DNA of 64,000 nucleotides, from NCBI RefSeq assembly GCF_947623445.1, contig NC_135247.1, positions 6,388,501 through 6,452,500 of the forward strand. Reading direction: 5' to 3'. The position numbers were made by a program, and so were the translations under genes. The notes below the pieces were generated by a model. The model worked only from the letters and a program-made list of their open reading frames with translations. It was not told where the DNA came from and made no database searches. Shown here one piece after another: positions 19,101-55,300 of this stretch. Within the stretch, counting starts at the first letter, position 1. Each line of letters begins with the position of its first letter. The DNA comes from Clavelina lepadiformis (Eukaryota; Chordata; Ascidiacea; Aplousobranchia; Clavelinidae).

Positions 19101-22100
19101 AAGCTGCCATTGCATTGCTTACACCGTACAATCATAGTAGTTATTGTGACGAATACTAGCCATAGTGACATAGTACCTTGTAGTCAGTTACGATATAATG
19201 CAGGTTGGCAACGCGGCAATGAATAGAGAGTAGGGTAGAGAGAGTAGAGCTTTACTGAAAGAAGCTTCAATACAGTCGACGAAAGAGCTCCTAAAATGAA
19301 AATCTTCCACTAAAGTCGATAGCTGCGAAAGACCTTCTAGTTTCGACCACAACCAGAACAGCAGCTCGTCTAACTCCGAAGAAAAAGAGATGGTTAACAC
19401 AGGCTTGTTCTCTTTCATGCCGTCAGCTACATCAAGAAAAAAGAGGAAGATTACTTCAGGTCTAACCAAGGAAAATATTCTAAGTGATAAAGTTGAAAGA
19501 TATTTCGCAGCAGAGCGTAAGAGCATGGATTGTGATGTTTTGAGTAACTGGAAAAGCGAAAATCGTTTTCCTCATCTCAAGGCCGCTGCTCGAGAACTCC
19601 TAGGCATGACTGCAACATCAGCTCCATCGGAAAGAGTTTTCAGCCATGCAGGATAACTGTATAGTGCGAAACGAGCCAAGCTTGGTGTACAGACATTTGT
19701 CATTCTCATGCTTATGAGAATGAACTCTGATTTGATATGAACTGAACTTGATTTTTGTTCTATTTCTTTCTAATTCGGAATTTAATTCAATTTCCAAGTT
19801 TTTGCGAATTCAGTAATTCTAATTCTAATCTAATTTGGAAAAAACTGTGTAGCTATAATTCTAATTCTAATCTAATTTGGAAAAGCTGAAAATTTTCTAG
19901 TTGTCCAACTCTGCCCTAGGGGCCGCGATGTGAGACGTCACAAAAGATCGACCAAAAACACGTGTACAAATAAATAAGTAAAATACAGCAGCACGTGAGC
20001 AAACCTAAAACCTGACAAGCATGCACACAAAAGACATAACGCGAACAAAAACAGGAGCTGACCCACACATTTAACCAAATCAAAATATAAGAGTGGTGTA
20101 AAAAAACAATACGATGGCTATAAAACGGGTGCATAAATATAATCCCGTGACATATATAGTGCCATAATTGCGGGTGCATGTATACCAACGAGTTTCCTTT
20201 TTTATCTATGATATATAATCTATATACTGTATAGATACCTTGTGCTTTTGGACGCTCGAGAAAAACGATTCCAAACTAAATCGTTTTTCAATTACAACTT
20301 TAGACCCTTGAAGCAGACCCAGAAATGGAAGCATGATACCATAAATATGGAACATTGGCACGACCAGATAAATGACATCGCGTTGGAAACTTCGGAAAGA
20401 GACTCTGCATAATAAAATGTACTGTAATTAAACACATGCTACAGCTGTTGGTTCAAGTGTATAATGTTGAACTGCCATGGTGGTCATTTAAACCAAACTA
20501 AACTCCTCACCGGGATATGGTGATCATAGCGATTATATTTTGCTGAGTGAGCATTACACCTTTCGGCATGCCAGTTGTGCCACTGGAGTAAGGAAGAAAG
20601 GCGAGGTCTTCCGAAGGATTTACTGATACGTCGTGTGGATAGTCTAATCAAATATTAGTTATGTATAAGCCAATCGAAAAACATATACATGGTTGTAGAA
20701 GTCCAATACTCATTTTTATGTAAGAATCCCTTCATAAAATAAATCGTAGAAAACTCAGGTCCAATCTTAAATTAAAAAAAACTTTTGCATAAAAGTGGCT
20801 TTCACCACCAGGCCTTATAGGCCCTTCGATGAACTTTGATTAAAACTTTATTTATTGCAAAACTTAACTAAAGCCTGAGTCACTACAAGCCCGATGCAAA
20901 TTGTCAAATGAAAAATGAATGTATTGGCAGACTAAAAAACAAACCTGACGAAAAATGTATGTAACTACACAAAGCGCTGCTTTAATTTAAAAACAACGTA
21001 GGCCTACGACATAATTTCTATAACATGTACGCACCTGCCATGTTAGCTCGTCCAATAAGATCGTGAACCGATTCACACTGCGAACATGACTCCACAGAAA
21101 ATATATGCTAAAACATACAAATGTTTGTCTTGAAAAAGTTATTTTATTTTTTAAAACGGTAATATAACCCAAAGCTGTTATACTACTATAATGAGTAATA
21201 CTATAATACTAATACTATTAATTATGGTATACACCTGATGAAGCAAACTTACTCTTTCGAAAGCTCGTGTAGAAGAATTATAAATTAAAAATAAAAGCCA
21301 AACCTATAGAGTTCCATCTTGTATTCTGTTTTTATATTTTATTATATACTGGTTAACTCGGTTCAGTCACCATTAGGTTCTTATACCATAATGAGTTAAC
21401 AATTTGTATGGTTTAACAATTTCGATAAACGCAATCAGAAACTATCATTTAACGGTAAATTAAATTATTACTTTAATTACAAGCAAACGAGTTTTGAATG
21501 AACATACTGTATATTTGTCCTTATTGAGTAGCCTAACCTGGAAGGAAAAGATAAATACAGTAAGTATAAATGAACGGTCAATATAATGTATTTAGTTCAC
21601 ATAAATCATTGTGTAGAAATAATTTTTTTTTACAGTGAGTCAAAACAACGACAGAACAGAGATGTTACTGTAATATAACAGTAGTGATATAGTTAGTATG
21701 ATATAGTAATAGCTTTTGTATAGAAGTACGATTATTTGGAAAGGAAAGGTGAGGATCGAGGCTGTTAATAGCGATTGTGAGCTTGGATTACTGATTTGTA
21801 AGAAAAACCATCCAATCTGCTTTGCTCAATGGTCCTTGATCGTAAAAGGGGGTGATTTTTGCCAATGTAGTTGGTATCCATTTCACATGAACATGAAAAA
21901 CTGCCGTACAACATTCGGCACAAAGTTTCTAGGTAGGCTGTACAAGATCTGTTGTTGAAGTAGTTCACATTGAACTGTGGGTATAGGCTAAAGTTTAGCT
22001 AAACACATTGTCATAAGTTAACTTTTAACTTTTTGCTTTTAAGTTGCTCATTGTTGTATTTTCAGGAACGTTTGGGAGCGTCGGGTTTATTTTCGCTGGT

Positions 22101-23860
22101 GCTGTTGTTAGCGCTAACATTTTGATGACAAGAATGAAACAACAGGTTGATGAAATATTTGCCTGTGGTAGATGTTTTAGAAATAAAAGGTTGATTTATA
22201 AATTATAAAGTGTATTTGTTGAACATCTGGCCCATGTATGATTAGTTAAGTATAAGCAGCAGGTCATTTCCAACTTGCTTGGCGCGTATACGTTTTCGGT
22301 TTAAAGTTGTAGTTTTTTCAAGGTCCATCAATTCGCTTGTATACAGTATTTTGTCTCTATAGTATAAACTTAAAGGAACCACGGATAGCAATTTCCAGAC
22401 ATACATACATTCGTGTCAAACGGAGAGGCGATTGCTGCCATTATTACCGGAGATATGACCAGCAATGATCGTAATAGTTTCTTTTAAAGGGACTTTGGTT
22501 AATTATTATTATTATGTATTGAAAAATAAAAGATAAAAAAGGGCTGTTCAAAGTGCGGTCAGCGGGCCAAAAACAGTCTTCACGAAAATTGTTTGTAGCC
22601 CTTAACCAGTCTTGCAATTAAGGTTGATGTAATTGAATCTTAATTTTTTGCAAGGATAGGCGTTTACTTCAACTTGGCTTCCCAGTTCGAACTGTCAAAA
22701 AGTCAGGAAATAAATATTTTGTCAGATTTGATAAGCTAAGGTTTACAACCAAGAATTTTATAACAGAAAGGTGAAGAATAACAGTTTGCAGCCCGCCAAG
22801 CCACAAGAATTGATAGTGTAATGTGAGCATGTGACCTAGTGTCCTAGTTAGCATTATACACAAAAACTTTGGACATTACAGTTGGGATAAAGCAATGTAA
22901 GTAGGCTACTGCGCAGTAAAGAAAACAATTTGTACAAGACGCGGCTGTATATAGAAGTAAACACAAGCAAAGTAAACATACCTATATAACGCTAATCTCA
23001 AAGATTAATGTTTAACTTTTACCTGCACAGAGTTGATGCCTTTAACAATTTCTCTCATTGCACCGCATTCTCCAGCATCAACAAATATCATTTTCGGAAG
23101 GGAATGTTGAAATTGTCGCCGAATTTCGTCTTAAGAAAATATTTAAATTTCATAAAATCATAATTTTAATATGCAGTGAGTTGAAGTTTCCCTCAAACAA
23201 CAACTTAAGCGGCCAAAATCGCTAAAGTTTTTATGTTGTATTTCGCCACCACAAGCTTTCCAAAGACGATGGCAATTATTTTTCTATAATTAAGAAACTA
23301 CGATGTCATAAAAGCTACGATCAGCGTGTTATAAACATACCACGAGTGTAATGAGGGTTGCAAGTTGTAACTGCAGCTCCGCATGCAACAGACGCGACTA
23401 CGATCAGTGGAAACTCTATACAGTTGGCAAAAGAAGTTGCTATCACATCGCCCTTGTTTAACCCGAGGCTTGCCAACGTGCTCGCCAATCTCACTCCCTT
23501 TTCTCGAATTTGCTTGTATGTGAAGAATTTTGAACTGTCAGCACTATCCACCTGTACATTTAGGAATAATGTTCATTAATGTAATTCTTTAATTTTACGA
23601 GTTATAATCCCTTTAAAAGCGCATCCAACTTACAGATAATTACAGAGAGGTGTTTTAGTCGATTTATGTAAAGCATCTATGTAGGCCACATTATAATTAA
23701 TCATATTCTGATCAAGTTCTACTGTTGAGGACTAGATAAACTTATAAATTGTTACCAATGCTACATCGTTGTCCTGTTGGCGCCCTAATCCGTCCAAAAG
23801 ATATTCAATCAAAGAAACTTTAGGTATTACAACATCAGGTAAAGGTCCTCTGATCACCAT
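16134..23860 (-). CDS. 4-coumarate-CoA ligase-like acyl-CoA synthetase A (peroxisomal)
   Basis: ANL-superfamily adenylating enzyme (acid + ATP + CoA to acyl-CoA), related to 4CL and beetle luciferase. Twelve exons, minus strand: 23756-23860, 23341-23551, 23023-23129, 21035-21107, 20511-20643, 20239-20404, 17840-18008, 17616-17716, 16822-16893, 16566-16721, 16333-16494, 16134-16258; about 526 residues. P-loop motif [11 protein letters not shown] (184-194), FHIYG, GYGLTE (322-327), WFHTGD (400-405) with Asp405, [10 protein letters not shown] hinge region (420-429), catalytic Lys511 in [11 protein letters not shown]. It ends ...KSKL, a canonical PTS1, so peroxisomal location is likely. Oddity: exon 16333-16494 is 162 nt whereas the same exon in B, C and D is 163 nt; the run at 16377-16380 lacks one base, shifting the frame, a real lesion or a homopolymer sequencing error. 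Substrate unknown. Confidence 0.9.
18217..18470 (+). repeat. tRNA-derived SINE in an intron of synthetase A
   Basis: A tRNA-like head with A box TGGCTCGGTGG (18224-18234) and B box GGATTCGATTCC (18272-18283) is followed by an unrelated tail ending near an A/T-rich GAAAATAAATTAAATT. The two boxes are spaced as in a Pol III type-2 promoter, but the arms do not fold into a proper tRNA, so it is a SINE and not a tRNA gene. Tail boundary is approximate. Confidence 0.7.
18888..19921 (+). mobile_element. hAT-type DNA transposon remnant with transposase dimerisation domain
   Basis: Inverted ends CTAGGGCGGACTTGGACAAC and GTTGTCCAACTCTGCCCTAG bound about 1 kb in the 2.2-kb intron of synthetase A. The plus-strand frame 19390-19656 reads '[20 protein letters not shown]' then '[14 protein letters not shown]', the hAT C-terminal dimerisation motif; after a stop the homology (AKRAKLG...) continues. 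Subterminal TTCTAATCTAATTT-type repeats occur near both ends in the same orientation. No clean 8-bp target duplication could be fixed. Most of the transposase is deleted. Confidence 0.75.
21231..21395 (+). mobile_element. Penelope pseudo-LTR fragment with hammerhead-like motif
   Basis: ACACCTGATGAAGC...TTTCGAAAGCTCGTGTAGAA matches the minus-strand end of the Penelope-like relic at 4455-4497, and the homology continues downstream (TCTGTTTTTATATTTTATTA...TAACTCGGTTCAG here; CCTGTTTTTTATTTTACTTT...TAACACGGTTCAG there). CTGATGA and GAAA are the conserved core boxes of hammerhead ribozymes, and ACAC/GTGT could close stem I. It lies in an intron of synthetase A. Confidence 0.55.
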
Positions 23861-28235: not shown

Positions 28236-31200
28236 ATGGTTCTTCGGAGTCATTTGCCTGACCTTGCTATTCCTGACAAGAGTTTGCATGACTATTTGCT
28301 TCAATGTTTGCAAGCTCATGGCGACAGAGTTGCTGTAGTAAGTATAAAAGTGTAATTGTGAGCTCGAAAAAATTGCAAAACTAAGTCATCTGTTGTTGCT
28401 GCTTATAGCCTACGCTGAGCCTTTAGGTTTTAACGCAAAAGCTATAAAAAAGAAATAACTTTTTTCCAGTAAAAGTTTAGTTCAGTCATAATGTCATATA
28501 TAGAGTCAAATCGTTGTTTCAGAATATACATTATGTATATTCCCGTATAATTGACTCGAAACGGTATGAAATGTGCTTCGTGCATCATTACACTTACAGT
28601 CGAATACTGAAGCATGACTCTCCAAGTTGTCCTTGCAATTTGAATTCGATTCTGCGTAAATTTAACTCTAACAAACATTAAGTTTCGTATTTTAGCTCAA
28701 TGCTGGTGACAACAAGGAATCATTTACGTTCAAACAAATCCGGGATTGTGCTGTAAAGTGCGCATGCGCATTATACGATCTGGGTATCGGGAAAGGTGAC
28801 ATCATAGCAACATGCATGACGAACTGCGTCGAATATGTTTTTGTAATGATTGGAGCCTCTGCATGCGGAGCTGCAGTTACAACTTGCAACCCAAGTTATA
28901 CTGAAGGTAAATTAGCTAATTATACCAAACAGGGACCTCGTTTCACGGGGGCAGGAGGGCATTTCCCCCCAACTTTTGAACAATTACCATAGTTTATCAC
29001 AATTGGAACTGTTTTCTGTAACTGCCAATGATTTTTAAACCAAGTTTGTCCCTCCAAAGTTTTATAGCAAACTAGATATACCAAACAAACATGGGCAACT
29101 CTCGTCAAACTGTTTGCTGGATTTCACACTGGTGTTCATATCATTATTATCATCTATTTTCTGCAGTGGAAATAATTCGACAGTTTCAGAATTCTCAGCC
29201 CAAAATGGTATTTGTGGATGCATGTGACTACAACAAAATGGTGAAAGTGTCTCATAGCGTTGGATCGATTAAGGTGAGTAATCTGGAGTTCTTATTACAC
29301 TGTAATAACAATTAAGTAATACAGTGTATATAAGCATAGCGATTTCATCCATTTAATCTAAAACAGGATATAATATCTGCGGAAAGAACATCGATTTGTA
29401 AAACAATATACGACTTGATTGATGGCGCCGTCGAAAAAAGTAAGCAGAAACAAGATGAATTAAGGTAACAATTGGAATTTTCAATGGAACTGCTAATACA
29501 TTTTCTGTTACATTTTCATGTTCGGTTAGACTTTCCTTATCAAGTTGAAGTAAATCCTGACGATACAGTGATGATGCCTTACTCCAGTGGTACTACAGGT
29601 TTATCCAAAGGTGTTATGATCACTCAGAGAAATCTTGTTTCCATCATCGAGTTAGGCAGGTATATTTTGAAACAAAATAAAAATTGATATTGACAGACCC
29701 ATGATTTCATCAATGTATGGAACAAGTAAAAATACTAGAAAAATGAGGTAACACTATTTTATTAACCCAAGCTTAAGCTTGCTTTGTCAGGCTCGGTGTC
29801 TTGATCCTGCTGCCATTTTTTACTATCTTCGTTACAATTGACGAAGCAAGCTCAATTTTGCGAAAGCTTGTGTTAGTAACTAAAATTGAACTTGTTATGT
29901 GGAATATGCTACTCCTTTTCGTTTTATTGCTTTCGATATTGCAAAATCATTAATAGTAAAGCATGCCTTAGGGCTTAGGCTACACTTATATTACAAAAAT
30001 GATATATGAAACATATATGTTATAAAGGAAGATTTATTTAATATTCTGGCATTAAACCCTAAATTAGATCTGAATCGGGTATGATAACCGTACTCAACAA
30101 AAATTAGTCAATTTATTAGAGAATATCCTCAAGACACTTCGTTATACATGAGATGAAATTATTGTTTTTCTTAGTTCGGTCTGCTATTGATTTACATATG
30201 GTAACATTTTGTAGGGTATCCGTTGGAAACTCCAGGGCAGATACTCAGTACCTTGTGCTTCCCATGTTTCATATTTATGGAGGAATGGTTACTTTGTTAT
30301 CTTTAGTTACCGGTTCGAAAACCATTTTGGAGAAAAGATTTACAGTGGACAGTTTTTTTCACAGCGTGCAGGAGCATAAGGTTTATAAAGGAACAAAAAA
30401 TTTTCTTATTGTTTATCACATATTTTCAAGAGCTTAGTGTGGAGTCATTACATACAGCACTTTCTTAAGTTATTTAGTTATCATTTAATCAGTTGCATCA
30501 GCCAACATGCAATAAAAACAAAACTGACAAGAAAAAATCGGATGCATTACTAAGTGCTTTAATCAAATGGAAAAATTTTTTTCGACATACAATATGGTTT
30601 TTAATACAAAACCACTCGCCTTCACCATTCCTATAAGGTACCGGAGACGGGTATTGAAAATTATTCTATTTTAACTTTTTCAGATAAATTTTCTTTATGC
30701 TGTTCCCCCAATGATCCTTTCCATATGTAACAGTCCTCAGCTATCCCACTACGACATATCTTCTCTTTCAAGAATAATTAGTGGAGCAGCGCCGCTACCA
30801 GATGGTGTGGCCAAGCAAGTCATGAAAAAACTAAACGTGCGTTTGTATCAAGGTGAGTTACAAACGGCTATGTGCAACTGTAGCTTATACACGATTTCTG
30901 AATTACTTTCTTCGTCGCAATTACGAAAAGGTAATGTTTTAAAAGATTACTATAATGTCCAACATCGTTTACCAGGCAGAAATGACTCATTGCGATTCTC
31001 ATATTTCTAAAAATGCTTTAATATAGTTTGTTTTATTTGGCAGGCTGGGGTTTAACAGAGGCCGTTCCGCTAGTCGTGTCATCGCTTGATGTTAACATTC
31101 CAATTCAATCCGTTGGATATGCTTCTCCAAATACATTAATTAAGGTCAAACTTTGTTGATTAATTATCTTAATTATTGTGTGATAAAGTTAACGCTACTC

Positions 31201-35072: not shown

Positions 35073-35079
35073 TATAAAA
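35073..35079 (+). promoter_or_regulatory. TATA box of the IL-1-like gene
   Basis: TATAAAA in GGAGTATAAAACTAAAAGCC lies 78 bp before the ATG at 35157, so transcription would begin at about 35100-35110 and give a short unspliced 5' UTR. A proximal TATA box fits an inducible, intronless gene. Confidence 0.55.
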
Positions 35080-35156: not shown

Positions 35157-35789
35157 ATGACGATGAAAAGCGGTAAGCGACGTTCCTTCAGCATAAGAAA
35201 GTTATTTCATTGGTTCTTGAATCGAGGCAGAGTGGTACCAAACGCTGAGTGTAGATCGAGTCAAAGCTCCGGTCCCAGATCGAGTACCTGTCAGAGCTCC
35301 ACACTGAGCCCCAGGTCGAGCAAATGCAGCAAAAGCACGGAGTTTCAGGAACTTTATAATTTTCGTGAAATCCAGGATACACAGATTGTCAATGCTAACG
35401 GTAGTGATAAGTGGTTTCCGGCCGATCTTGTAGACGGGCGAAATGTTCTCTGTGGGAACTCGAACGTGTATTGGAAGACTTGGACCACGGATGACGACTT
35501 CCTGTATATATTCGGAATACAAGGCGAGGAATCGTTCCTTTACATCAGCGCAGATGAAGAAAAGGGAAGGTTGAAGTTGCGTACGGGATCTGATCCTTCC
35601 CAACCAGAAGGGATTTCTCAAGGAGACAAAAGAATTTTGAGAACTGAAACCTTTATTGCCGGATCCTATACTTTTAAAGTAGAAGGAAGCGGTTATTGCG
35701 TTTTTTACCACGAAAACGGAACATCATCCCCGCTTGTTTTGGACAAGCCTGCTGCTGATAACATTCCAACAAACTGGCAAATGATTTAA
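35157..35789 (+). CDS. IL-1-family-like beta-trefoil protein, single exon
   Basis: Uninterrupted 210-codon ORF with TATA box and AATAAA. No signal peptide: the N-terminus is basic (KSGKRRSFSIRKLF, residues 4-17) followed by a Ser/Arg/Cys-rich linker (32-61). Residues about 66-210 have the length of mature IL-1 and a matching pattern: FREIQD (69-74) against FRIWD of IL-1RA; FGIQGEESFLYIS (119-131) against LGIHGGKMCLSC; LKLRTG (139-144) against LQLEAV; DKRILRTETF (157-166) against DKRFAFIRSD; YTFKVEGSGYCVF (171-183) against TSFESAACPGWFL; PLVLDKPAADNI (192-203) against PVSLTNMPDEGV; WQMI end. IL-1-family proteins are leaderless cytokines with N-terminal prodomains, which fits. Another beta-trefoil (FGF-like) is the alternative. 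Identification is by eye; the gene structure is secure, the family call moderate. Confidence 0.6.
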   Translation: MTMKSGKRRSFSIRKLFHWFLNRGRVVPNAECRSSQSSGPRSSTCQSSTLSPRSSKCSKSTEFQELYNFREIQDTQIVNANGSDKWFPADLVDGRNVLCGNSNVYWKTWTTDDDFLYIFGIQGEESFLYISADEEKGRLKLRTGSDPSQPEGISQGDKRILRTETFIAGSYTFKVEGSGYCVFYHENGTSSPLVLDKPAADNIPTNWQMI

Positions 35790-36005: not shown

Positions 36006-36011
36006 AATAAA
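36006..36011 (+). terminator. polyadenylation signal of the IL-1-like gene
   Basis: AATAAA in TTCAATAAAGTTTTATTC, 217 bases after the stop codon, the first canonical signal downstream, giving a short 3' UTR. Confidence 0.6.
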
Positions 36012-39483: not shown

Positions 39484-42400
39484 ATGGTGTTAAAGAGTCC
39501 GATGCCCGACATAGTATTGCCTGGTCATAGTTTTCATGAGTATATGCTTCGGAGATTACAAGCCCATGGAGACGAAATTGCTTTGGTAAATATTCTTATA
39601 GCCTTTTAGCCTTCTGCAACTTTTCATAAACTATATCGGCAACATTCTAGTTATTACAACCACATGAAATATAATACATTTCATATGCTTGAAGCAACCA
39701 GGACCTAAACACACGCTTCAAGTGCAAGCAAAATATATGCTGTGCATGCAATAAAGTCGAAGAAGGTAACACACGTCATCGCTTCGTACCTTTTCTATTC
39801 TGGGTGTGATGTGGGCTAATGCGGATACCGACTGTAATAAGAAATGAAGAATAATAATATGAAGGGCTCTATGCCGTTTGATTTGGTTAAATATATCTAA
39901 TTCTACATGGAATGTTTGAATCGAGAGGCAAGCATGCCAGCATGCACAGAATACATTTGAAAAATTGTTGAAGCGTGAGTTTTTGCAACCTGCATGTCTT
40001 GATCTCTTGAAGCTCTAAATCTGTTTGATTCGAGTTATTATTATGAATGCAGAAACTTATTTTTTATCAATTAATGATAGTGAAACAGCTGATAAAGTAT
40101 TATCTCAGTCACATTTATTTCCAGATTGCCTGCGAAAATGGGGACACAATAACTTTTAACCAGATCAGAGAAAATGCTTTGAAATGCGCATGCGCATTCA
40201 ATAGCTTGGGTATAAAGAAAGGTGACGTAATAGCAACATGCTGTTCAAATTCTTTCGCTTTCTCTTACGTTCTGATTGGAGCATCAATATGTGGAGCAGT
40301 GGTAACAACGTGCAACCCGAATTACACCAAAGGTACTTGGAGCAATGCCGAGTTCTATTTCATAAGTGACTGGAATCACTCTTCCGCTATCTTTAAGGAG
40401 CTTTAAGAAATTTTAAGCAGTTTTGACAAAATAGTTGCATTTCGTCATAATGATTGTTATGACAAGTAAGTAATTGTAACATGTAAGACAACACCTATGT
40501 AATTATAGTCGTTGCAACATTTCTGCTCAGTGTTTCTGCCGCCTACAAAATTAGCTTTAGAGTAAGCAATAAAACTGTATGAAAATTATAGAGGAAATGG
40601 GAAGTCAATTTGCTGACTCTCAACCAAGGATAATACTCATTGATGGGAAAAATCACCAAAAAATCAAAGACATAAGTCTTAATGTAAAAAGTATTATGGT
40701 AAGCATTTATATCGATGTCATTGTTAGAAAGCAACGAAGAAATTGGTTTTATTCTGTAATTATGTATTTGCAACGTCTAGCGCATCATTTCTGTTGATGA
40801 AAGTACTGAATGTGGAACTATCGCAGACTTGATGGAAAAAGCAACTTTTGCTGGTATAAATTTAAATCTGGCATGGCACTAAAGGACATCAAATCACTTC
40901 GTAATGCTTTCAATTTCCTCAGACTATCCTCACGACACAGTTGTTGAATCCGACGACACACTATTATTACCGTACTCTAGTGGCACAACTGGACTGCCTA
41001 AAGGAATTATGCTTACTCACCAAAATGTTGTTGCTTTGAACGAAATAAGCAGGTAGAAACTTTGTATAAATGTACCTAAGTTATATTTAATTAAAGAAAT
41101 TAATTACATAACTACTGTAATTTTCATGTTCTATAGGTGTATTTTCATATTTATATAGGTTTGTTTTACAGAATGACATTCGGTATCTGGCAGACGGATA
41201 GCTTGTATTTAGTTTTGCCAACATTTCATATTGCTGGTATATTAAGCATAACACTTAGCCTTTCCATGGGCACAAAGGTGGTGATGGAAAAACGCTTCTC
41301 GTTGGAAAGTTTATTCAGAAATATTGAAAAACACAAGGTAACATTAAGTTTTCACATAATCTGAAATCTGTCATTGGAAAAACGAGATATGTCATGGTGG
41401 CTCCAGTGCTTCTCAACTGAGAGTATTATTTGGATGTACTACAAAAGCTTGTAGATTTTTAGTGTCATCGTTAATGGCAGATTATGAACTAAAGTTTTGC
41501 TTACCTTGACCAGTTTTCTAAAAAATTCCTTTTTGAGTTTTTATTCTTTCTCGTTTATCACATTTCTTTCTTTGCAACTATACTTACCATCTATAACTTG
41601 AAGGAAATCATATAGGCAGGTACACGACGTTTCAAAATCGTTGTTTATATATGGCCAACAAAATTTATGTATACGGCGTTTAAAAAGTGTACACCATAAA
41701 TTGGCAGCTATTGTACATATAAATATGAAAATACATTTCATTTGAAGTCGATTTAAAGCAATTTATGACGCGTACAACCCCCAAATTTTTGCCCATTGCC
41801 CAATTTAGGAGAGATGATCAAACACAGGAAAACTCAGCTTTTAGAAACTTTTACTCCCCCACCCTCAAACGCATTCCCAAATACGCCACTGACCAAGCTT
41901 ATCATAGCATGTAAGATTAATGATAATACCACCGAAAGTCAGGTAAAGCTGTTTAAACTATAGGTCACTATCAATAAAAATGTCAAACAAGGTTAGCTTT
42001 TAGTGTGAATTTAACGTAAACATATTTTTCTACAGATCACTTTACTGGTCTCTGTCCCACCAATGGTTTTGGCAATATTTAACAGTCCGTTACTTTCCAC
42101 ATATGACATTTCGTCTCTATCGAGAATTATTTGCGGTGCAGCCCCATTGGCTGACGGTGTCGCTGTCGAAGTCCAAAAACGATTGAATGTCCGTTTATAT
42201 CAACGTAAGCATTTTTGTGTGTTTTATAGTGGGGAACCGGTATTTATTTGCTTTATTTAAACATAAATAAATAAATTATAACTTAGTATAAATTTAATTT
42301 TCGTATAAATTTAAAATATAAATATTTGTGACCAAAATGAAGATCGCAGTACTTAAAAAAGGCTTTTTAAACTTTATAGTGGTAAATTTTGTACTTGTGT

Positions 42401-44945
42401 TGAAATGTTTGAGATATAGTTAATCCTGCCTGTCTATACCTTTGTCATCCTTGGACTAAAAAAGGTTTTGCACGACATTAACTTATGAATCGTAATTGTT
42501 TAACCCACTGCTGCTTGCTGTCGTGCCTGAAGATAGACACAAACCTATGTATGTCAGGTCTATTCTTACACCACATTTAAACTCATGAATAACGATGAAC
42601 TTAATAAACTCATGAAAACTATCATGTCATATGTAGCCTATACTGGGTTTAGTTTGTTATGGACGCATTTAGATTTTACTTCTTTCACATGACTTGTTTT
42701 TTATTAAACCAAACTTGGCTCGTGGCTAACACACTCTTTAGGTCCTAGGCTACATAAGCAATACGGTGCTACAATAGTGACGTTATAGTTCAGTGCGAAA
42801 ACCACTAAGGCGACAACCCGCTAACAAAACCACTTGACTACGCTCCCGCAGGTGGTCGACTTACCGGGATTCTACGATACTCCTTTGTTGTCTGTCACAG
42901 GAAACATTCTAATCATACTTGATTCGAATACCGAAGTGATCTCTATTGTTTCTTTTAAAGTGACGTAACAAGAACCGCGATCTTCGTCATAATTAAGCGA
43001 TGAATTTGCGTTTTTTTGCCACATATTTATATCAATAACTGCTTAACCACTACTTATTAGTGCAAATCCTTTTACGGTATATTTGCTGACAACTACTCTT
43101 TGGACTTGCCCCTCACTTTAAGGAAATTTAGATACTGTTTTACTCAAATAGACAGACTTATGGTTTCTCAACCAGTATAATGTAAACATAAACTTGCTAC
43201 AGTATGGGGAATGTCAGAAGCTGTTCCTTTGACTTCATCTGGATTGGATGTTAATATTCCCATTCGCTCTGTCGGCGTCGTCACTCCCAATACCATGCTG
43301 AAGGTAGTACTACAGCCTATGTTGACTTGAAAAGCTACAGCGTCTTTTTATAATACTGCAGGCTAACACAACATTTTCCCCATGCTCTTTTACAATAGGT
43401 TGTCAATCCGGAAACTGACACGGAATTAGGACCAAACGAAGAGGGCGAGTTATGTGGAAAAGGTCCGCAGGTATGAATTTATTTTACCAATGGAAATATC
43501 ATCGATATGGTGTGAGGTATGAATATAGGTCTACTCGTTATTATGGCATCATTTATGTTGTCTGGGAACAGTCAACCTTTCACCACATATTTTTTCCGCT
43601 TTAATGGCTGACTTGAGGCACATTGATTGCCATTACAGTGCAAAAAACATTTGTAATTTAACAGCGAAAAGGTCCCAGGTTCATGCTACGCTGTCAAAAA
43701 GCGTTCATTTGAAAACTTTTATCAAATAATTTTTTTTATTACTTGTAGGTGATGAAGGGCTACTTTAACAATCGCACAGCGACATCAAATTGCATCGATT
43801 CCGAAGGATGGCTGCACACAGGAGATATCGGTTATTATGACAAACATGGATGCGTTTACATCATTGACCGGCTGAAGGAGCTGATTAAATACAAAGGGTT
43901 TCAGGTAATCTTTTCTTATACGTTGTTGAGTTATTTTTGCAAAATGTACTCATACATTTAGCAAAATCCAAACCGTGTTTAAACCAGAAATATACTTGTA
44001 TATGACTACCAAAACCAAGGTCAAAATATCACATGTTATGCCAGTTTAAGCATACGGGTTTGCACGTTGGGCCACAAGTAGCGAATTAAAAAAATCTAAA
44101 ATAAAAAAGGCAGCTGCAGAAATATGGTTTTTGAGAAAAATGTTAAAAATCACATGGAGGGAAAGGACTAAAATTTGCAAAAATGGAAAGGACTTCAACA
44201 AAATCATTCAGAAAACAACAAATGCAATTCATAGGACATGTCCATAGATATGGAAATCTGGAGAAAGCAGCAGTGTTGTTAGGTTTCATAGAAGGAAGAG
44301 TAGTGGACGAAAAAATTGACATATCTCATTAGTTTAAATAAATCGACCATAGATGGGTATGTTAAAACAACGACTTTATCCGCATGTCCAATGACAGAGA
44401 GGCTTTGATGACCACGATCGCCGATGTTAGTCGCAGATCTGGCACTTAACTAACTTATGCTTTGAGAACATAGAGATTGCAATCATTTCTAAAACTACCT
44501 CAAAACTTAGGTTGCTCCGGCTGAACTCGAAGAAGTCCTTTTGCGTCACCCGCAAATATCTGATGTTGCAGTGATTGGTATTTCTGATGCGCAAGCTGGA
44601 GAGGTACCAAAAGCATTCGTTGTCAAAAATGACAAATCTCTTGCTGCTGAAGACATTCATAAATATTTGGAAGGTATGATATTGTCTATATAGGTTCCGT
44701 TTTCTTATAGTAAATATCAAGCAGTTTTGATTGTATCAGCAAGAAATTGTTATTTTCCTTTATGACGATACATTTGTTTAATTGCAAGTGACTGCTGTTG
44801 AATTTTACCAGGGAAGGTGTCATCTTACAAACATTTGCGTGGAGGAGTCACATTTCTTGATGTTATTCCTAAAAGTCCAAGCGGAAAGATTGTAAGAAGA
44901 TACTTACGTGATCAGGAAAAGAAAAAACTTTCAAACAGAAACTAA
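39484..44945 (+). CDS. 4-coumarate-CoA ligase-like acyl-CoA synthetase C
   Basis: Complete gene, twelve exons: 39484-39585, 40125-40332, 40592-40698, 40781-40853, 40923-41052, 41172-41337, 42036-42204, 43203-43303, 43399-43470, 43749-43904, 44511-44673, 44812-44945; 526 residues, same intron phases as A and [12 protein letters not shown] (181-191), [15 protein letters not shown] and [11 protein letters not shown] are intact, so the adenylation and thioesterification machinery is present. Differences from A/B: FHIAG instead of FHIYG, and LWGMSE (319-324) instead of G(Y/W)GLTE, so the acyl pocket is probably altered; the conserved Glu324 remains. The C-terminus is KKKLSNRN, not SKL, so peroxisomal import by PTS1 is lost. 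A LINE fragment lies in intron 10. Confidence 0.93.
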
Positions 44946-46943
44946 GACAAAAATTAATGAAACAAAAAAATGTTTGGGTTTTATTGTTAATCTCTATTAA
45001 TTGATTACAAAGCATTACTGTATACATATTATACTGCAAACTATACTAAATCGATTTATTTATGACGTTAACTGGTGGCTTGCAAGACTAATGTTATATA
45101 TGTTGTCTGATAGTAATATTGCCACTGATTTGAATGCAAGTATACGAAAAACGCACACCTGCTTTTTGTTCTTGTAACATTAGACTAATACATAATTTAA
45201 AGGAGCAACCGATCCAGTTGTTGCTATAGAGCAAGCTTTTTTCAGAAACATTCTCACGCAAGTTGATATATATCCAAACTGAAGCTTGTTCGAGCGATTT
45301 TGTTGTCATAATACCAATATCAACTGTCGGTAAATCGAAAGTTTACCTCAGTTTACATCAAGTTGATGGCAATAAGAAACAAAAAGATACCTGCAGAGCA
45401 GACCTACTGTAGGTGGTGTTTACTATAATTTGCTGCAGGGCAAAGACTTTTAAATAACAGTTTTAACTTGCTTTTTAAATAGACTGCTGGTATTTTTGTT
45501 GTCATGTTAGCTTCTGTGTAATCGATAAGTTAGGCTATCGGTACATTCAAGCTCCGCAAAACCTGATGACGACATCACCCTGCACAACTATGCGCAAAAT
45601 ACATTGAATTTCATGAAAGTTTGCGAACTCAAATATGCCAAAATACATTTTGAAAATTATTGAAGCGTGAATGACCGCAGGAAATAATCTTCGTAGTTTG
45701 ACAGCGGAACCGGCAATCAACTAACATGTGGAGAAATACAAAATCTAGCTATGCGATGTGCGTGTAGCCTATACGTTGAACAAGTTAGGAATCAGTAAGG
45801 GTGACGTGATTGCAATTAGCTTGGTCAACTGTATGGAATTTATTCCAATTGAAGTCACCATTTCAGCCTGTGGAGTGATGATCACTACGTGCAATCCTAA
45901 TTATACGAAAGGTATCAAAGCCATCTGACTTCTTAACTGCCATTGTATGAAACATTGTATTGTAATTACCACATCATTGCTATGCCTTGCAGACGAACTC
46001 ATAAAGCAATTTCCAGATTGTAAATCAAAGCTTGCATTTGTGGATTTACAACATGTTCGAAAAATGGAAGAAATTGCTGGAAAAATATCTTCGCTTACGG
46101 TAGGCTATCATTTCTGGAAGTGTTGAAGAAAGTAAAGAAAAAAAACACAACATAGACTATTCCAGTACTCTGTTACACATATTAAACATCCAGCTGCTGT
46201 GGTAACAGGACACGATAAATTACAAACAGTATTCCGAATTGTGAAATGTACTTTGCCTATATGTACTCTTCAACATGTGGTGGTAACATCACTTTTACGA
46301 AATTATTTGTTGATAATACCACATGTACACCATCGGTCAACATCCCGGTTATGCTTTATTTAACGATTTAACAACCAGCTCAAAATTAAAAGGTAAAGTA
46401 GTTAAACAATTTCAGGTCATACTATAACAGATCACGGCATGAGGTTTTTGCTTAGACTTGACAAAGTTCAAGATTTTTTAAGTTTGTCTTCAGTTGATGA
46501 GGAAGATGCGTTTTTGCTTCTTTATGCTAGTGGGACAACTGGATTACCAAAAGGAATAGTACACACGCAAAGGAACTTGACAGCAATATGTGAATTACGA
46601 AAGTAAGCTTACTTACAACTGGCCATACTAAAAGTTGCTACCGCAAACCGAGGCTTAGGGTATTTCACTTGCAGCATATCCCTTGGACAAGGAGCAAAAC
46701 TGATCATCGAGAAACGATTTTCTGTAAAAAAACTGCTTACCAGCTCAGTAAAGTACAAGGTAATATTCACAAGATATTTTAAAAGATTCGTAGCCTCAAA
46801 GCTATTGCATTTTATTGAAATGTCGCATTTGTTCCTGCCGTGTCACCGATGATTTTGCAAATCTACAATAGTGATTTGCTGGCTCAGCATGACATCGTTA
46901 ACCAGGATTGTATGTTCTGCCGCTGCTTTACCGGACGGGGTTG
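39597..46943 (+). repeat. tandem segmental duplication, left copy
   Basis: Begins at TTATAGCCTTTTAGCCTTCT in intron 1 of synthetase C and ends inside pseudogene 1 near TTACCGGACGGGGTTGC. Exons, introns and spacers are matched in order by 48861-57417. Exon 2 of the two copies differs at 2 of 208 bases, so the event is recent. Confidence 0.9.
44107..44320 (+). mobile_element. LINE reverse-transcriptase C-terminal fragment in intron 10 of C
   Basis: Reads [16 protein letters not shown], then with shifts in frame '[20 protein letters not shown]' and '[14 protein letters not shown]', the conserved tail after the RT domain of many LINEs (W-FLRRML-I-W ... R-QL-FLGH--R---LE ... G-I-GKR). The duplicated copy in gene D is at 54811-55025. 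Confidence 0.75.
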
Positions 46944-47866
46944 CTAGTGACGTTAAAATACGCCTGGGTATTCGCTTATTTCAAGGTAAGTCTTGTAGTT
47001 GTCATACAAGAAACTTTCACTTCATACCGTACTTGACTCTTAAATCACTCAGGTTTCTGGTTAACAGAAAGCTTGCCTTTAACAGCTGCCGCATTGGACA
47101 TGCACAATTGCACATTCCTATTTGATCGATTGGAACTTTAGTTCCAAATACAACATTAAAAGTAAGAATACTGAGCTTTCAAGAAGATCGTACTCAAGAA
47201 AAGTTGTTGTTACGTTGCATGTTTCACATTTGTAGATAGTGGATAAGAACATCGGAAATGTCTTGGACCAAACCAAGCAGGAGAACTATGCGTTAAAGGT
47301 CCTCACGTGAGTACCATATATGAAAATTGAAGTATTAAGTTATGCTAAGTATGTGAGTTAACTTAGTCTATGGTACATCAACCAAGGGGAATGGCTTTCT
47401 ATGAGGGTAGTTTTCGGTTAAACATTAATTAGGCTTAAATTACGTGCACACGGTTATGAAAAGATATTACAATAGTCCAAAAGCAATATTAAACTCAATT
47501 GATCATGAAGGCTGGTTTCACACAGGGGATGTTGGTTACTATAACGAACGCTGGTATTTGTTTATTGTGGATAGACTGAAAAAGATGATCAAATTCCACG
47601 GATTTCAGGTCAAATTTGATCTTCTATAGTGAAGTTACTGATGTGATGTGGCATCTTTGATGGAATCAGCAATAACATATACAAATTTATGGTCGTTTGT
47701 ACCGGCTGATTTAGAAGCACTACTTTTAAGTTATCCAAAAGTATCCGACGCTGCGATGATTGGGGTCCCGTACGGTGACGCAGGCGAAGCCTCCAAAGCT
47801 TATTTAGTTCGGATTGATCCTTCCCTAATAGCAGAAGACAAACACCAACTCATAAAAGGTAGATTA
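45690..47866 (+). pseudogene. acyl-CoA synthetase pseudogene 1
   Basis: Third cluster member, decayed. Recognisable exon relics: 45748-45911 (CGEIQNLAMRCAC... then GISKGDVIAISLVNCMEF, separated by a 7-bp insertion AGCCTAT that shifts frame), 45993-46099 (DELIKQFPDCKSKLAF, intact), about 46462-46602 ([14 protein letters not shown]), about 46669-46759 (LGQGAKLIIEKRFS; the FHIYG region before it is lost), about 46833-46986 (frame change before SLTRIVCSAAALPDGV), about 47053-47161, about 47236-47308, 47444-47609 (RYYNSPK...HTGDVGYY; no AG acceptor before it), about 47700-47861 (PADLEALLLSYPKVSD). First and last exons were not found. Several frameshifts and lost splice sites make a functional product unlikely. 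Confidence 0.85.
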
Positions 47867-48860
47867 GCATAGAATATAGAAACTTTAAAACTACGATGTA
47901 AGCTCGTTTCATATTTCAGTGCATAAGTGAAATTACGACGCAAAGTTGTTGTGGCTGTGGCAGAGGGAGAGTATAAGTTCGGGCCCGAATCTGGCCCGAT
48001 TTGTTTGTAACTTGCTGACCCGAAACGCCCGGCCCGACTTATAACTCTGATTTATTTATTTATTTTTGCCAACTTTATTTTGACCTAACGAAATTGCTTA
48101 TTTGTAGAGGCCACAGTTCTTCCTCCAGTTACCCAAACATAACATTTTGTCGATTTCAGACCCAAACGTAATATTTTGTCGAAAAGTCAAGGTGTTTTAT
48201 GGATTATAAAAAGTGCGTCGTGTTTTTTGGCGATAGATTTAGGTAGCTTGTGTTATTTTGTCCTTGTGAAAAAGGCACTATGCCTCGATTTTCTCCGCAT
48301 GCTAAATTCTAATAAACAGCAGATTAAACAATTAATCAGAAAAATCTCGACAAATCTGTCTAACTTTTGCTGAAGACGATTTAGCTTGCTTAGGCATTTA
48401 TGTAGCCTAATACGGAATGTCAGTAGGCTATTCCTAAAATCCAAACTGTTGATCTTCGAAAAGACCACGTTTATGAAGAGGAAGTGTTTTATAAGAATTA
48501 TTTAAATACGCAACAATGAATAAACAATGGACAATTTGCGATAAAAGTTACTGCTGATCCAAGTGGGCATTGTGACTTATTTCCTGTTTTTATGGGTTAA
48601 TATGGTTTAATTGTGTCGCAGTTCCTGATTTACAATGCTTCCACGAGGATTTTTACAAAAATTACTCTCAAAAAACACAAAAACTTTGTCAAAAGCCATA
48701 ATTTGACAAATTTTGACTTTATTGAAAATTTTGACTTTATTTTGACCTATAAACTTCTTAGTAACAATCCCCTAGGTGCTGAAAACAACTTTATTCTTTG
48801 ATTCGTGGTCAGACGAGGTCCTTAAAAAATTTTGACTTTATTGACTTTTGCGGGCCCTAC
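47867..48860. other. unique spacer between pseudogene 1 and the right duplication copy
   Basis: Contains copy 2 of the GGGCCCGA palindromic repeat (47957-48046) and AT-rich sequence. No first exon resembling MVL(R/K)S...LP...HG was seen upstream of synthetase D. The duplication junction is CGGGCCCTAC|TTATAGCC at 48860/48861. Confidence 0.6.
47957..48046 (+). repeat. GGGCCCGA-rich palindromic repeat, copy 2
   Basis: Inverted-orientation relative of 33178-33270. Contains TTCGGGCCCGAATC near its left end and CGGCCCGACTTATAAC at its right; outer parts TATAAGT / ACTTATA are inverted repeats. Confidence 0.5.
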
Positions 48861-49377
48861 TTATAGCCTTTTAGCCTTCTGCAACTTTTCATAAACTATA
48901 TCGGCAACATTCTAGTTATTACAACCACATGAAATATAATACATTTCATATGCTTGAAGCAACCAGGACCTAAACACACGCTTCAAGTGCAAGCAAAATA
49001 TATGCTGTGCATGCAATAAAGTCGAAGAAGGTAACACACGTCATCGCTTCGTACCTTTTATATTCTGGGTGTGATGTGGGCTAATGCGGATACCGACTGT
49101 GGTAGTAAGAAATGAAGGGCTCTATGCCGTTTGATTTGGTTAAATATATCTAATTCTACATAGAATGTTTGAATCGAGAGGCAAGCATGCCAGCATGCAC
49201 AGAATACATTTGAAAAATTGTTGAAGCGTGAGTTTTTGCAACCTGCATGTCTTGATCTCTTGAAGCTCTAAATCTGTTTGATCCGAGTTATTATTATGAT
49301 TGCAGAAACTTATTTTTTATCAATTAATGATAGTGAAACAGCTGATAAAGTATTATCTTAGTCTCATATATTTCCAG

Positions 49378-52300
49378 ATTGCCTGCGAAAATGGGGACAC
49401 AATGACTTTTAACCAGATCAGAGAAAATGCTATGAAATGCGCATGCGCATTCAATAGCTTGGGTATAAAGAAAGGTGACGTAATAGCAACATGCTGTTCA
49501 AATTCTTTCGCTTTCTCTTACGTTCTGATTGGAGCATCAATATGTGGAGCAGTGGTAACAACGTGCAACCCGAATTACACCAAAGGTACTTGGAGCAATG
49601 CCGAGTTCTATTTCACAAGTGACTGGAATCACTCTTCCGCTATCTTTAAGGAGCTTTAAGAAATTTAAGAAATTTTAAGCAGTTTTGACAAAATAGTTGC
49701 ATTTCGTCATAATGATTGTTATGACAAGTAAGTAATTGTAACATGTAAGACAACACCTATGTAATTATAGTCGTTGCAACATTTCTGCTCAGTGTTTCTG
49801 CCGCCTACAAAATTAGCTTTAGAGTAATCAATAAAACTGTATAAAAATTATAGAGGAAATGGGAAGTCAATTTGCTAATTGTCAACCGAGGATAATATTC
49901 ATTGATGGGAAAAATCACCAAAAAATCAAAGACATAAGTCTTAATGTAAAAAGTATTATGGTAAGCATTTATATCGATGTCATTGTTAGAAAGCAACGAA
50001 GAAATTGTTTTTATTCTGTAAATATGTATTTGCAATGTCTTAGCGCATCATTTCTGTTGATGAAAGTACTGAATGTGGAACTATCGCAGACTTGATGGAA
50101 AAAGCAACTTTTGCTGGTATAAATTTAAATCTGGCATGGCACTACAGCACATCAAATCACTTCGTAATGCTTTCAATTTCCTCAGACTATCCTCACGACG
50201 CAGTTGTTGAATCCGACGACACACTATTATTACCGTACTCTAGTGGCACAACTGGACTGCCTAAAGGAATTATGCTTACTCACCAAAATGTTGTTGCTTT
50301 GAATGAAATAAGCAGGTAGAAACTTTGTATAAATGTACGTAAGTTATATTTAATTACAAGAATTTAATTAAGCAACTACAGTATACTGTAATTTTCATGT
50401 TCTATAGGTGTATTTTCATATTTATATAGGTTTGTTTTACAGAATGACATTCGGTATCTGGCAGACGGATAGCTTGTATTTAGTTTTGCCAACATTTCAT
50501 ATTGCTGGTATATTGTGCATAACACTTAGCCTTTCTGTGGGCACAAAGGTGGTGATGGAAAAACGCTTCTCGTTGGAAAGTTTATTCAGAAATATTGAAA
50601 AACACAAGGTAACATTAAGTTTTCACACAATCTGAAATCTGTCATTGGAAAAACGAGATATGTCTTAGTAAAAGGCAGCCTTTGGGGGAGCAATATACCA
50701 TAGTGGGTCCAGTGCTTCTCAACTGAGAGTATTATTTGGATGTACTACAAAAGCCTGTAGATTTTTAGTGTCATCGTTAATGGAAATTTATGAACTAAAG
50801 TTTTGCTCACCTTGGCCAGTTTTCTAAAAAATTAACACTATGCTGTAAGTATGTTTGGCCATGACTCCTCACACACCCAAATTTTTTGGGCCATAGTCCT
50901 TTTTGAGTTTTTATTCTTTCTCGTTTATCACATTTCTTTCTTTGCAACTGTACTTACCAGCTATAACTTGAAGGAAATCATATAGGCAGGTACACGACGT
51001 TTCAAATCGTTGTTTATATATGGCCTACAAAATTTATGTATACGGCGTTTAAAAAGTGTACACCATAAATTGGCAGCTATTGTACATATAAATACGAGAA
51101 CACATTTCATTTCAAGACGACAATTTATGAGGTGTAAAACTCCCAAATTTTTGCCCATTACCCAATTGAGGAGGGGTAATGAAACACGGGAATTTAAAAC
51201 CCAGCTTTTAGAAACTTTTACTCCCCCACCCTCAAACGCATTCCCAAATACCCCACTGACCAAGCTTATCATAGCATGTAAGATTAATAATAATACCACC
51301 AAAAATCAGGTAAAGCTATTTAAACTATAGGTCACTATCAGTCAAAATGTCGAAAAAGGTCAGATTATAGCGCAAATTTAACCTAAACATATTTTTCTAC
51401 AGATCACTTTACTGGTCTCTGTCCCACCAATGGTCTTGGCAATATTTAACAGTCCGTTACTTTCCTCATATGACATTTCGTCTCTATCGAGAATTATTTG
51501 CGGTGCAGCCCCATTGGCTGATGGTGTCGCTGTCGAAGTCCAAAAACGATTGAATGTCCGTTTATATCAAGGTAAGCATTTTTGTGTGTTTTATAGTGGG
51601 CAACCGGTATTTATTTGCTTAGACTCTAAGCCTTAGAGTGAGGGCAAGTTCAAAAATAAGTTGGCCTTAAATCAAAGAATAGTTGTCAGTAAACATACTG
51701 GTGAAAGGATGTTTAATAATACGTTCTGATTGAGTAGTTATTGCCGACATAGTATTGCAAATTCTATTATGACTTAAAGAGCGGCTAATATAACGTCACA
51801 CTCTAAAAACAATATCCCTCATGGCTGGGATTTGTATTAGGTGGGCTATGCCACTATGGTAGGCTAGCTAACGCTTTACGGATGGAATATGTCTTCACAT
51901 GTAGGTGACTGGTAGCAGGCAATATTTGTTTTCAGCGTTGGAATGTCACAAAAAAGAACACGTGAACTGATAAAGTATTCTTGTTTTTACCGAAGTTACC
52001 GGTACCGGACTATCTAGGTTAGAGCCCACAGCCAAGACTAAACTATACTGGTTTGCATCTACAATTCTACATTAACCAGTACAAATACCCCAACAGTAAG
52101 CTGGTTTAGGCTTATTTAACGCGAAATGTTCTTGTTATACACTTAAGTACGCTTTTATTACATCTAATAGGCCTACTATTTACTTGTCGACCACCAAAAA
52201 CTTTTTAGGTCGCCACTATTTCACCAGAAAAAAATCGTGCTGTCGAAGCTATTTTTTACAGTTTCTTGTCAACCTAACTCAAATGTTATAACACATTAAC

Positions 52301-55300
52301 CTAAAGTTAACTCCAATAAAACCTTAAATAGCTAAAGTCAACTTCTTGCATACCCATTCTCCTAACGGTTAGGAGGACCTAGCCGTTACCTTATTAGGAC
52401 CTAACCTATAGTAGTTTAGATTTATTTAACGCAAAATGTTCCTGTTATTCACTTAAGTACGTTTTTGTTATACCTGTTACAGTGGAACCCCGGTTAACGA
52501 ACAACCAGCTATCACGACCACTTCAAAGTGGCACGGAATATCTTTCTATCGCAATGTATAACTTTCTGTTTGGCCAATGCGACCACTCCGGTACCCAAAC
52601 AGCGACAGCAATAAATTGGCACGAAGCAAATGATTGAACCCCACCTAACACGCCCACTAATACATCATGAGTATGACAGAAAAAATCGCAAACTTTTTAA
52701 CGGGCAATTGTTAAATCATAAACAATTAATTGCAGCTGCGCCGTTATCATTTGTGACAGTATTGTGGCGATGGCTGGGCACCACTATTTCACTGGAAAAA
52801 ATCGTGCGTTCGAAGGTATTTTTTACGGTTTCTTGTTCAATCTAACTTACATTTTATAACTTAATAACCTAAATCTACCTTCTAATCTCAGTCTAACTCC
52901 AATAAAACCATAAATAACTGAAATTAATTTTTGCATTCTCCTAACCAAGGGTTTCGTATATCGTAAATTTCGTATAAATTTAAGATATAAATTTCGTGAC
53001 CAAAATGAAGATCGCAGTACTTAAAAAGGCTTTTTAAACTTTGCAGTGGTAAATTTTGTACTTTTGTTGAAATGTTTGAGATATAGTTAATCCTGCCTGT
53101 CTATACCTTTGTCATCCTTGGACTAAAAAAGGTTTTGCACGACATTAACTTATGAATCGTAATTGTTTAACCCACTGCTGCTTGCTGTCGTGCCTGAAGA
53201 TAGACACAAACCTATGTATGTCAGGTCTATTCTTACACCACATCTAAATTCATGAATAACGATGAACTTAATAAACTCATGAAAACTATCATGTCATATG
53301 TAGCCTATACTGGGTTTAGTTTGTTATGCAAAACTAACTTTATTTTGATTTTACTTCTTTCACATGACTTGTTTTTTTATTAAACCAAACTTGGCTCGTG
53401 GCTAACACGCTCTCTAGGTCCGAGGCTATATAAGCAATACGGTGCTACAATTGTGACGTTATACTTCAGTGCGAAATCCACTAAGGCGACCAACCCGCTA
53501 ACACGATCACTTCACTATGGTCCCGCAGGTGGTCGACTTACCGTGATTGTACGGTACTCCTTTGTTGTCTGCCAAAGGAAACATTCTAATCATACTTGAT
53601 TCGAATACCTGAGTCATGTCTATCGTTTCTTTTAAAGTGACGTAACAAGAACCGCGACTTTCGTCATAATTAAGCGACGAATTTGCGTTTTTCTGCCACT
53701 TATTTATGTCAATAACTGCTTATCTACTACATATTAGTACAAATCCTTTTACCGTATATTTACTGACAACTACTCTTTGATTTAAAGCCAACTTGTTTTT
53801 GGACTTGCCCCTCACTTTAAGGAAATTTAGATACTGTTTTACTCAAATAGACAGACAGACTTATGGTTTCTCAACCAGTATAATGAAAAAATAAACTTGC
53901 TACAGCATGGGGAATGTCAGAAGCTGTTAATTTGACTTCATCTGGGTTGGATGTTAATATTCCCATTCGCTCTGTCGGCGTCGTCACTCCCAATACCATG
54001 CTGAAGGTAGTACTACAGCCTACGTTGACTTGAAAAGCTACAGCGTCTTTTTATAATACTGCAGGCTAACACAACATTTTCCCTGTGCTGTTTTACAATA
54101 GGTTGTCAATCCGGAAACGGCTACGGAATTAGGACCAAACGAAGAGGGCGAGTTATGTGGAAAAGGTCCGCAGGTATGAATTTATTTTACCAATGGAAAT
54201 ATCATCGATATAGTGTGAGGTATGAAAATAGGTCTACTCGTTATTATGGCATCATTTATGTTGTCTTGAAACAGTCAACCTTTCACCACATATTTTTTCC
54301 GCTTTAATGGCCGACTTGAGGCACATTGATTGCCATTACAGTGCAAAAAACATTTGTAATTTAACAGCGAAAAGGTCCCAGGTTCATGCTACGCTGTCAA
54401 AAAGCGTTCATTTGAAAACTTTTATCAAATAATTTTTTTTATTACTTGTAGGTGATGAAGGGCTACTTTAACAATCGCACAGCGACATCAAATTGCATCG
54501 ATTCCGAAGGATGGCTGCACACAGGAGATATCGGTTATTATGACAAACATGGATGCGTTTACATCATTGACCGGCTGAAGGAGCTGATTAAATACAAAGG
54601 GTTTCAGGTAATCTTTTCATAAATCGTCGTTGAGTTATTTTTGCAAAACGTATTCATACATTCAGCAAAATTCAAATAGTGTTCAAAACCAGAAATATAC
54701 TTGTAAATGACTACCAAAACCAAGGTCATAAAATCACATGTTATGCCAGTTTAAGCATACGGGTTTGCACGTTGGGCCACAAGTAGCGAATTAAAAAAAT
54801 CTAAAATAAAAAAGGAAGCTGCAGAAATATGGTTTTTGAGAAAAATGTTAAAAATCACATGGAGGGAAAGGACTAAAATTTGCAAAAATGGAAAGAACTT
54901 CAACAAAATCATTCAGAAAACAACAAATGCAATTCATAGGACATGTCCATAAATATGGAAATCTGGAGAAAGCAGCAGTGTTGTTAGGTTTCATAGAAGG
55001 AAGAGTAGTGGACGAAAAAATTGACATATCTCAATAGTTTAAATAAATCGACCATAGATGGGTATGTTAAAACAACGACTTTATCCGCATGTCCAATGAC
55101 AGAGAGGCTTTGATGACCACGATCGCCGATGTTTGTCGCAGATCTGGCACTTAACTAACTTATGCTTTGAGAACATAGAGATTGCAATCATTTCTAAAAC
55201 TACCTCAAAATTTAGGTTGCTCCGGCTGAACTCGAAGAAGTCCTTTTGCGTCACCCGCAAATATCTGATGTTGCAGTGATTGGTATTTCTGATGCGCAAG

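Follow-up and report, generated by a model that had tools for sequence, protein, structure and literature searches.

In a 64,000-nucleotide stretch of the genome of the ascidian Clavelina lepadiformis (hereafter the window, to which positions refer unless a contig or locus is named), the open reading frame (ORF) P0001 at 35157..35789 belongs to a family of about 20 genes that is expanding in tandem, and the domain that they share is very probably a beta-trefoil. We see roughly an even chance that these proteins form a cytokine-like ligand family that among trefoil cytokines resembles the IL-1 branch, as the initial annotation had proposed from visual resemblance. The TATA motif that the same annotation had described is present upstream of the gene, which has the following parts.

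35157..35789, + strand: P0001 coding sequence with stop (ATG at 35157, TAA at 35787-35789); 210 amino acids in a single open frame, with homologous open frames elsewhere in the genome
35157..35348, + strand: N-terminal region, residues 1-64, with a basic start, an LFHWFLNR segment and a Ser-rich linker (Ser-rich at residues ~34-60); a possible prodomain, read from the sequence, with no hydrophobic leader and poorly conserved in the family alignment
35349..35786, + strand: predicted beta-trefoil domain, residues 65-210, the family's conserved part; suggested by the PDB matches of an 11-member family profile and an in-register match to an IL-1 profile
35073..35078, + strand: TATAAA, a possible core promoter 84 bases 5' of the ATG, by position only
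36006..36011, + strand: AATAAA, a possible polyadenylation signal of P0001, by position only

The length of P0001 is weak evidence for a gene, as an ATG-initiated ORF of at least 210 amino acids occurred in one of 60 Markov-1 windows of equal size. The best matches of the protein were AMP_N in Pfam (E 0.11) and an entry at E 0.76 in a phmmer search of the PDB. A tblastn search of the assembly (209 Mb, 95 contigs) returned five further places at E < 0.01 (1.6e-9, 2.6e-9, 4.6e-8, 0.0018 and 0.0032), each of them within an open frame of 200-225 codons. P0001 is thus confirmed as a genuine ORF by its conservation across paralogous open frames and not by its length. A chance ORF, for which length alone would allow about 1 in 60 per window, is ruled out by these five frames, and we give it a negligible probability.

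Onward searches with L003, L004, L005, L006 and L029 brought the family to 21 loci including P0001, which is a lower bound because the search scores the best candidates only. The loci are arranged as three clusters on two contigs and two single genes.

Contig C8: P0001, single gene
Contig C2, 5.48 Mb: L003, single gene
Contig C2, 17.045-17.097 Mb: cluster of L005, nine near-identical tandem copies and L002
Contig C6, 5.769-5.783 Mb: cluster of L006, L023, L004, L028 and L011
Contig C6, 1.600-1.624 Mb: cluster of L083, L033 and L029

In line with the initial annotation, which called the gene intronless, the coding sequence of P0001 is one open frame, and the matched domain occupies one open frame at 19 of the 21 loci, with in-frame stops in L023 and in one tandem copy (L050); this finding covers the matched domain, outside which lie any introns upstream or in the 5' untranslated region and any last exon of L029 or the array. 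The nine copies of the array (the L042 array, C2:17052032-17086746) are leader-bearing and spaced ~4-5 kb apart, and one has an in-frame TGA. Among them, 11 codons vary by an amino acid or a stop and 6 vary silently, which is too little variation for a test of selection. With the array counted once and L023 left out, the family comprises 12 distinct domains with a mean pairwise identity of 22%.

The fold was approached by searching PDB sequences with a profile, A3, built from 11 of the 12 distinct domains (the twelfth being L083). All 14 matches were beta-trefoils, among them Mitsuba-1 (the best, E 5.8e-4), Sarol-1, Phifoil and designed symmetric trefoils. The E-values add up three symmetric repeats, no single repeat passing E 10 alone in 13 of the 14, and the matches are related to one another, so that they count for less than they appear to. 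A six-member profile gave 16 matches: 13 trefoils, namely Mitsuba-1 and twelve chains of FGF1 (E from 0.0059 to 1.2), and three others, TRIM3 and two sigma-NS chains. From these matches we consider it very likely that the family domain is a beta-trefoil, a fold treated in the available portion of PMC6596353.

The same matches also speak for a rival explanation, in which the family consists of non-cytokine trefoils, intracellular or secreted, that bind carbohydrate or actin in the manner of lectins or fascins, and in which the likeness to IL-1 is generic. We take Mitsuba-1 to be a designed mytilectin-type lectin, and both it and Sarol-1 to be trefoil lectins, and the part that they match is the.H..TG.(Y/F)(V/L) hairpin. 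Proteins of this type carry several repeats (three in Mitsuba-1), whereas the motif occurs by eye once per family domain, and an hhalign self-comparison of the family listed no internal repeat. In addition, mytilectins are reported as absent from chordates in the accessible part of PMC10744619.

To place the family among trefoils, we compared its profiles with those of IL-1, FGF, fascin and hisactophilin, a set outside which lie ricin-type, Kunitz, MIR and other trefoils. The IL-1 profile was made from manually entered sequences of nine human proteins of the IL-1 family, and is fit for use because it retrieves IL-1 structures with E-values down to 1.7e-55; this PDB check covers the IL-1 profile, the FGF and fascin profiles being likewise built from manually entered sequences. 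Aligned by hhalign, A3 matched IL-1 with a score of 31.0 (P 2e-4, probability 46.5%; columns 51-137 to 59-142) and in register. The scores were 17.2-18.4 for FGF, in a register displaced by one repeat, 12.4 for fascin repeats, 12.8 for hisactophilin and 7.9-12.0 for four unrelated proteins. When 16 combinations of alignment methods were applied to each profile set, the scores against IL-1 were 25.3-34.1 for the 11-member profile, 23.0-29.7 for the 12-member profile and 26.6-34.1 for an eight-member profile without the four leader-bearing members, while over all four profile sets those against FGF were 10.8-19.3 and those against fascin 10.2-17.9. No column shuffle reached the real IL-1 score in three series (0/150, maximum 20.5; 0/200, maximum 16.4; 0/200, maximum 15.3; 0/550 in total), and every leave-one-out profile (11 of 11) scored at least 24.6. 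As a control, a TLR family of 14 sequences from this genome was cut into seven slices, which scored 9.6-16.4 against IL-1; their profiles are less diverse than that of the trefoil family (Neff 1.6-2.9 versus 4.2).

A search of the 336 ORFs of the window and loci with an IL-1 hidden Markov model (HMM) placed five family ORFs in the top 12 (P 3.5e-4), with P0001 at rank 5 and none significant singly; 21 of the 336 were assigned to the family by hand-made motif keys. The FGF HMM placed one family ORF in its top 12, and the fascin HMM two. In a joint alignment read by eye, the family elements I..(T)..KW, FGI, L(K/R)L, D.R.F, (F/L).H..TG.(Y/F)V, L.L and W.(L/M) coincide with IL-1 columns over the full length. 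The family domain is likewise ~140-150 amino acids long, and with the branch of IL-1beta, IL-1Ra, IL-36, IL-37 and IL-38 it shares the in-register columns LGI, L.L, (D,E)KRF, F...PG.F and F.F. The motif correspondences listed in the initial annotation were partly sustained: FR.I.D, FGI, L.L, DKR and the W.M end share columns with the nine IL-1-family proteins (MAFFT, by eye), whereas the E..GY block set opposite FESA..PGW is peculiar to P0001, most paralogs having H..TG there.

FGF and fascin were rejected as nearest kin because their scores are lower and out of register. The FGF profile, which the initial annotation had named as a possible better match, is not one (14-19 versus 23-34 for IL-1). 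An origin from highly diverged FGFs that have lost their introns might be argued from the FGF1 chains among the six-member profile's matches (E 0.44-1.2), from the designed trefoils among the A3 matches, which presumably derive from FGF1, and from the mixture of leaderless and secreted members that FGFs also display; FGFs have the trefoil-cytokine size as well. The family's FGF scores of 14-19 (11-, 12- and eight-member profiles) are close to the highest shuffle (18.3), however, in a register off by a repeat; an FGF signature pattern was found in none of the 12 domains and in 12 of 13 FGFs, and no Pfam FGF match was obtained for the distinct members. We therefore regard diverged FGFs as improbable, and IL-1 as the nearest relative among the known families compared, with about equal prospects for and against a specific kinship.

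The members have differing N-termini, both leaderless and leader-bearing, as judged from 15-mer hydropathy readings near the N-terminus. No signal peptide is visible in P0001, the strongest N-terminal 15-mer of which reaches 0.09; the leaderless N-terminus described in the initial annotation, with its basic segment and Ser-rich part, is thus what the sequence contains. Six distinct members are without a hydrophobic leader (P0001 and L002-L006, maximum 0.6), and four, counting the array once, have a leader-like segment (L029, L033, the L042 array and L083, maximum 2.2-2.9), situated right at the start in L029 and the array and ~25-30 residues after the first ATG in L033 and L083. In L083, the furin-type site RRKR directly precedes the domain. 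L011 and L028 have instead an internal Cys-rich hydrophobic patch (maximum 1.6 and 2.9, respectively), and L028 also has a GDPP-type repeat in a GDPP-rich linker. The patches, CCFIVCVCPFALLC in L028 (L028:712-1878, + strand) and CCFLFSLCRW in L011 (L011:1081-1893, + strand), precede the domain, and are possibly lipidated membrane anchors.

Judging from this anatomy, the family most likely serves as extracellular protein ligands. Leader-bearing members (L029, L033, L083 and the array) would be secreted through the endoplasmic reticulum, some of them being trimmed at dibasic or RRKR sites ahead of the domain to remove a pro-peptide. Leaderless members, including P0001, would be made in the cytosol and released in the manner of alarmins, either when cells are damaged or through an unconventional route, as are IL-1 and FGF1/2. 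The coexistence of leaderless and leader-bearing members is a further likeness to the IL-1 family, in which IL-1Ra has a secretory form. Once released, the ligands may bind a surface receptor, possibly of the immunoglobulin-TIR type that has been reported in Ciona.

A number of results weigh against the proposed IL-1-like ligands. The four leader-bearing members alone scored 14.5-18.1 against IL-1, not above shuffles, and adding L083 lowered the score from 31-32.5 to 23.3 in one alignment. Among 11 single members, only L002 (29.3) and L005 (24.0) exceeded the highest shuffle; P0001 alone reached 18.8, where family shuffles reach 20.5, and the other eight 11.4-16.2. A sub-profile of IL-18, IL-33 and IL-1alpha did not match the family (11.1). 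An IL-1 signature pattern, F.S(A)..P..(F)(L).T, is found in none of the 12 domains and in five of the nine human proteins, and no IL-1 protein is among the 14 PDB matches of A3. A Pfam scan of the 12 distinct members gave no family at its cut-off, and the Pfam IL1 model (PF00340), suggested as a check by the initial annotation, had no match in them; a PF00340 search of the genome also gave no match, and is uninformative because control genomes were silent too. In L029 and the array copies the conserved final W strand is missing, so that their domains are possibly incomplete or their last exon unseen. Single-sequence AlphaFold models were unusable (pLDDT 38.2 for the whole of P0001 and 37.3 for the domain), and the fold is therefore one that we infer. 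Foldseek with the low-confidence domain model returned 635 matches at E up to 10 and none at 0.001, which we treat as noise, and IL-1beta at ranks 20, 37, 42 and 45 among the 50 matches listed (E 0.7-1.0) is not counted as evidence. Finally, the human IL1RAP TIR domain retrieved no IL-1R-like gene from the genome, where split exons may hide one, and its one weak match (E 0.008) looks like a TLR gene because it adjoins leucine-rich-repeat reading frames.

Small profiles also pick up a general trefoil resemblance at this level: FGF versus fascin scored 33.8, hisactophilin versus fascin 28.5 and IL-1 versus FGF 24.2. Within the IL-1 family, IL-18 with IL-33 scored 28.7 against the rest and IL-1alpha alone 44.9, and the family profile reached at most 22.3 (IL-1Ra) and 21.8 (IL-36gamma) against single IL-1 proteins. 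Because scores near 30 also arise between other trefoils, we interpret a score of about 30 as trefoil kinship leaning to IL-1 and not as membership. The fascin-FGF score indicates that such values can link functionally unrelated trefoils, as a lectin- or fascin-like identity for the family would require. The fascin profile itself, although fascin repeats are trefoils, scored only 10-18 against the family with no shared register, and four distinct members have leader-like segments, one of them with a furin-type site. Taking these points together with the single hairpin motif, we consider non-cytokine trefoils unlikely. The IL-1-family claim of the initial annotation is partly supported, through a profile match in register that is better than those of FGF and fascin; it lacks a Pfam IL1 match and the IL-1 signature, and P0001 alone is weak.

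The IL-1-like form could also have arisen by convergence, with lineage-specific trefoils independently recruited as ligands that resemble IL-1 in form and not by descent. Vertebrate IL-1 genes have introns inside the cytokine domain, whereas the matched domain of the family has none. Consistent with convergence, the intronless domain and tandem arrays are unlike the IL-1 exon structure, conserved from chicken to mammal according to the available text of PMC4090809. The family's hallmark W..W is absent in IL-1, and the family is without the FES-PG-WF motif (FES..PGWF) of vertebrate IL-1 described in the accessible part of PMC12108812. The identity of P0001 to IL-1beta is 14% over 83 columns. 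On the other hand, the register is the same along nearly the whole domain, and family columns 1-151 align globally to IL-1 columns 8-159 (P 0.008, probability 2.1%). Convergence appears to us rather doubtful; as it concerns descent alone, it overlaps with the IL-1-like ligand family favored here, and the two likelihoods are not additive.

TIR domains are numerous in the genome (84 matches at E up to 1, 40 of them over the cut-off). They lie on contigs C3, C4, C5 and C7 (L054-L063, L069, L072, L075, L076 and others), many ending open frames of ~1000 codons that are TLR-like by eye, and C4 and C5 hold arrays of short TIR exons.

Elsewhere in the window, a basic helix-loop-helix (bHLH) exon belonging to what we take to be an SREBP-like gene is followed by a mir-33 precursor ~2.7 kb beyond it, which points to animal DNA; mir-33 within an SREBP host gene is an arrangement known in other animals. 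Searches of the assembly for COX1 and for the tunicate marker GH6 gave no match at E 0.001, the GH6 control being silent too. A block of ~7-9 kb with AMP-binding exons, presumably of acyl-CoA/4-coumarate ligase type, is tandemly duplicated.

4693-5343, - strand: GIY-YIG endonuclease-like ORF (Pfam E 3e-4, just below the cut-off), possibly of a Penelope-like element
10816-11049, + strand: bHLH exon (Pfam HLH, E 6.8e-10)
13737-13805, + strand: mir-33 precursor (Rfam, 63.9 bits)
19300-19656, + strand: hAT transposase C-terminal fragment (E 5.2e-8)
23321-23572 (- strand), 28696-28992 (+ strand) and 30675-31010 (+ strand, below the Pfam cut-off): further AMP-binding exons
39595-46945 and 48860-57418: the tandem duplication, with five aligned pieces 93-96% identical

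According to the available text of a 2022 review (PMC9020223), no IL-1 homologue has been identified outside vertebrates, yet IL-1R-like genes are found there and IL-1-like activities in tunicates. The accessible portion of PMC5465252 describes putative Ciona IL-1R genes and, from botryllid ascidians, material that reacts with anti-IL-1alpha, and the available parts of PMC6707023, PMC5827265 and PMC10258323 use other Ciona cytokine genes and do not name a Ciona IL-1 ligand gene. Our literature search, which did not reach most subscription articles or any bioRxiv preprint, found no report of such a family among the papers listed, so prior publication is possible.

Even should the kinship with IL-1 fail, an expanding and partly secreted family of predicted trefoils that no Pfam model covers would be a novelty. 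We tentatively suggest, as a possibility short of even odds, that these genes are the first set of IL-1-family ligands recognized by sequence outside vertebrates, expanded to include alarmin-type members and secreted pro-proteins; they may be the missing ligands of the IL-1-like receptors of invertebrate chordates and the source of the IL-1 activities long ago ascribed to tunicate haemocytes. If true, a real invertebrate ligand family would date the IL-1 system and supply a receptor-ligand pair for testing.
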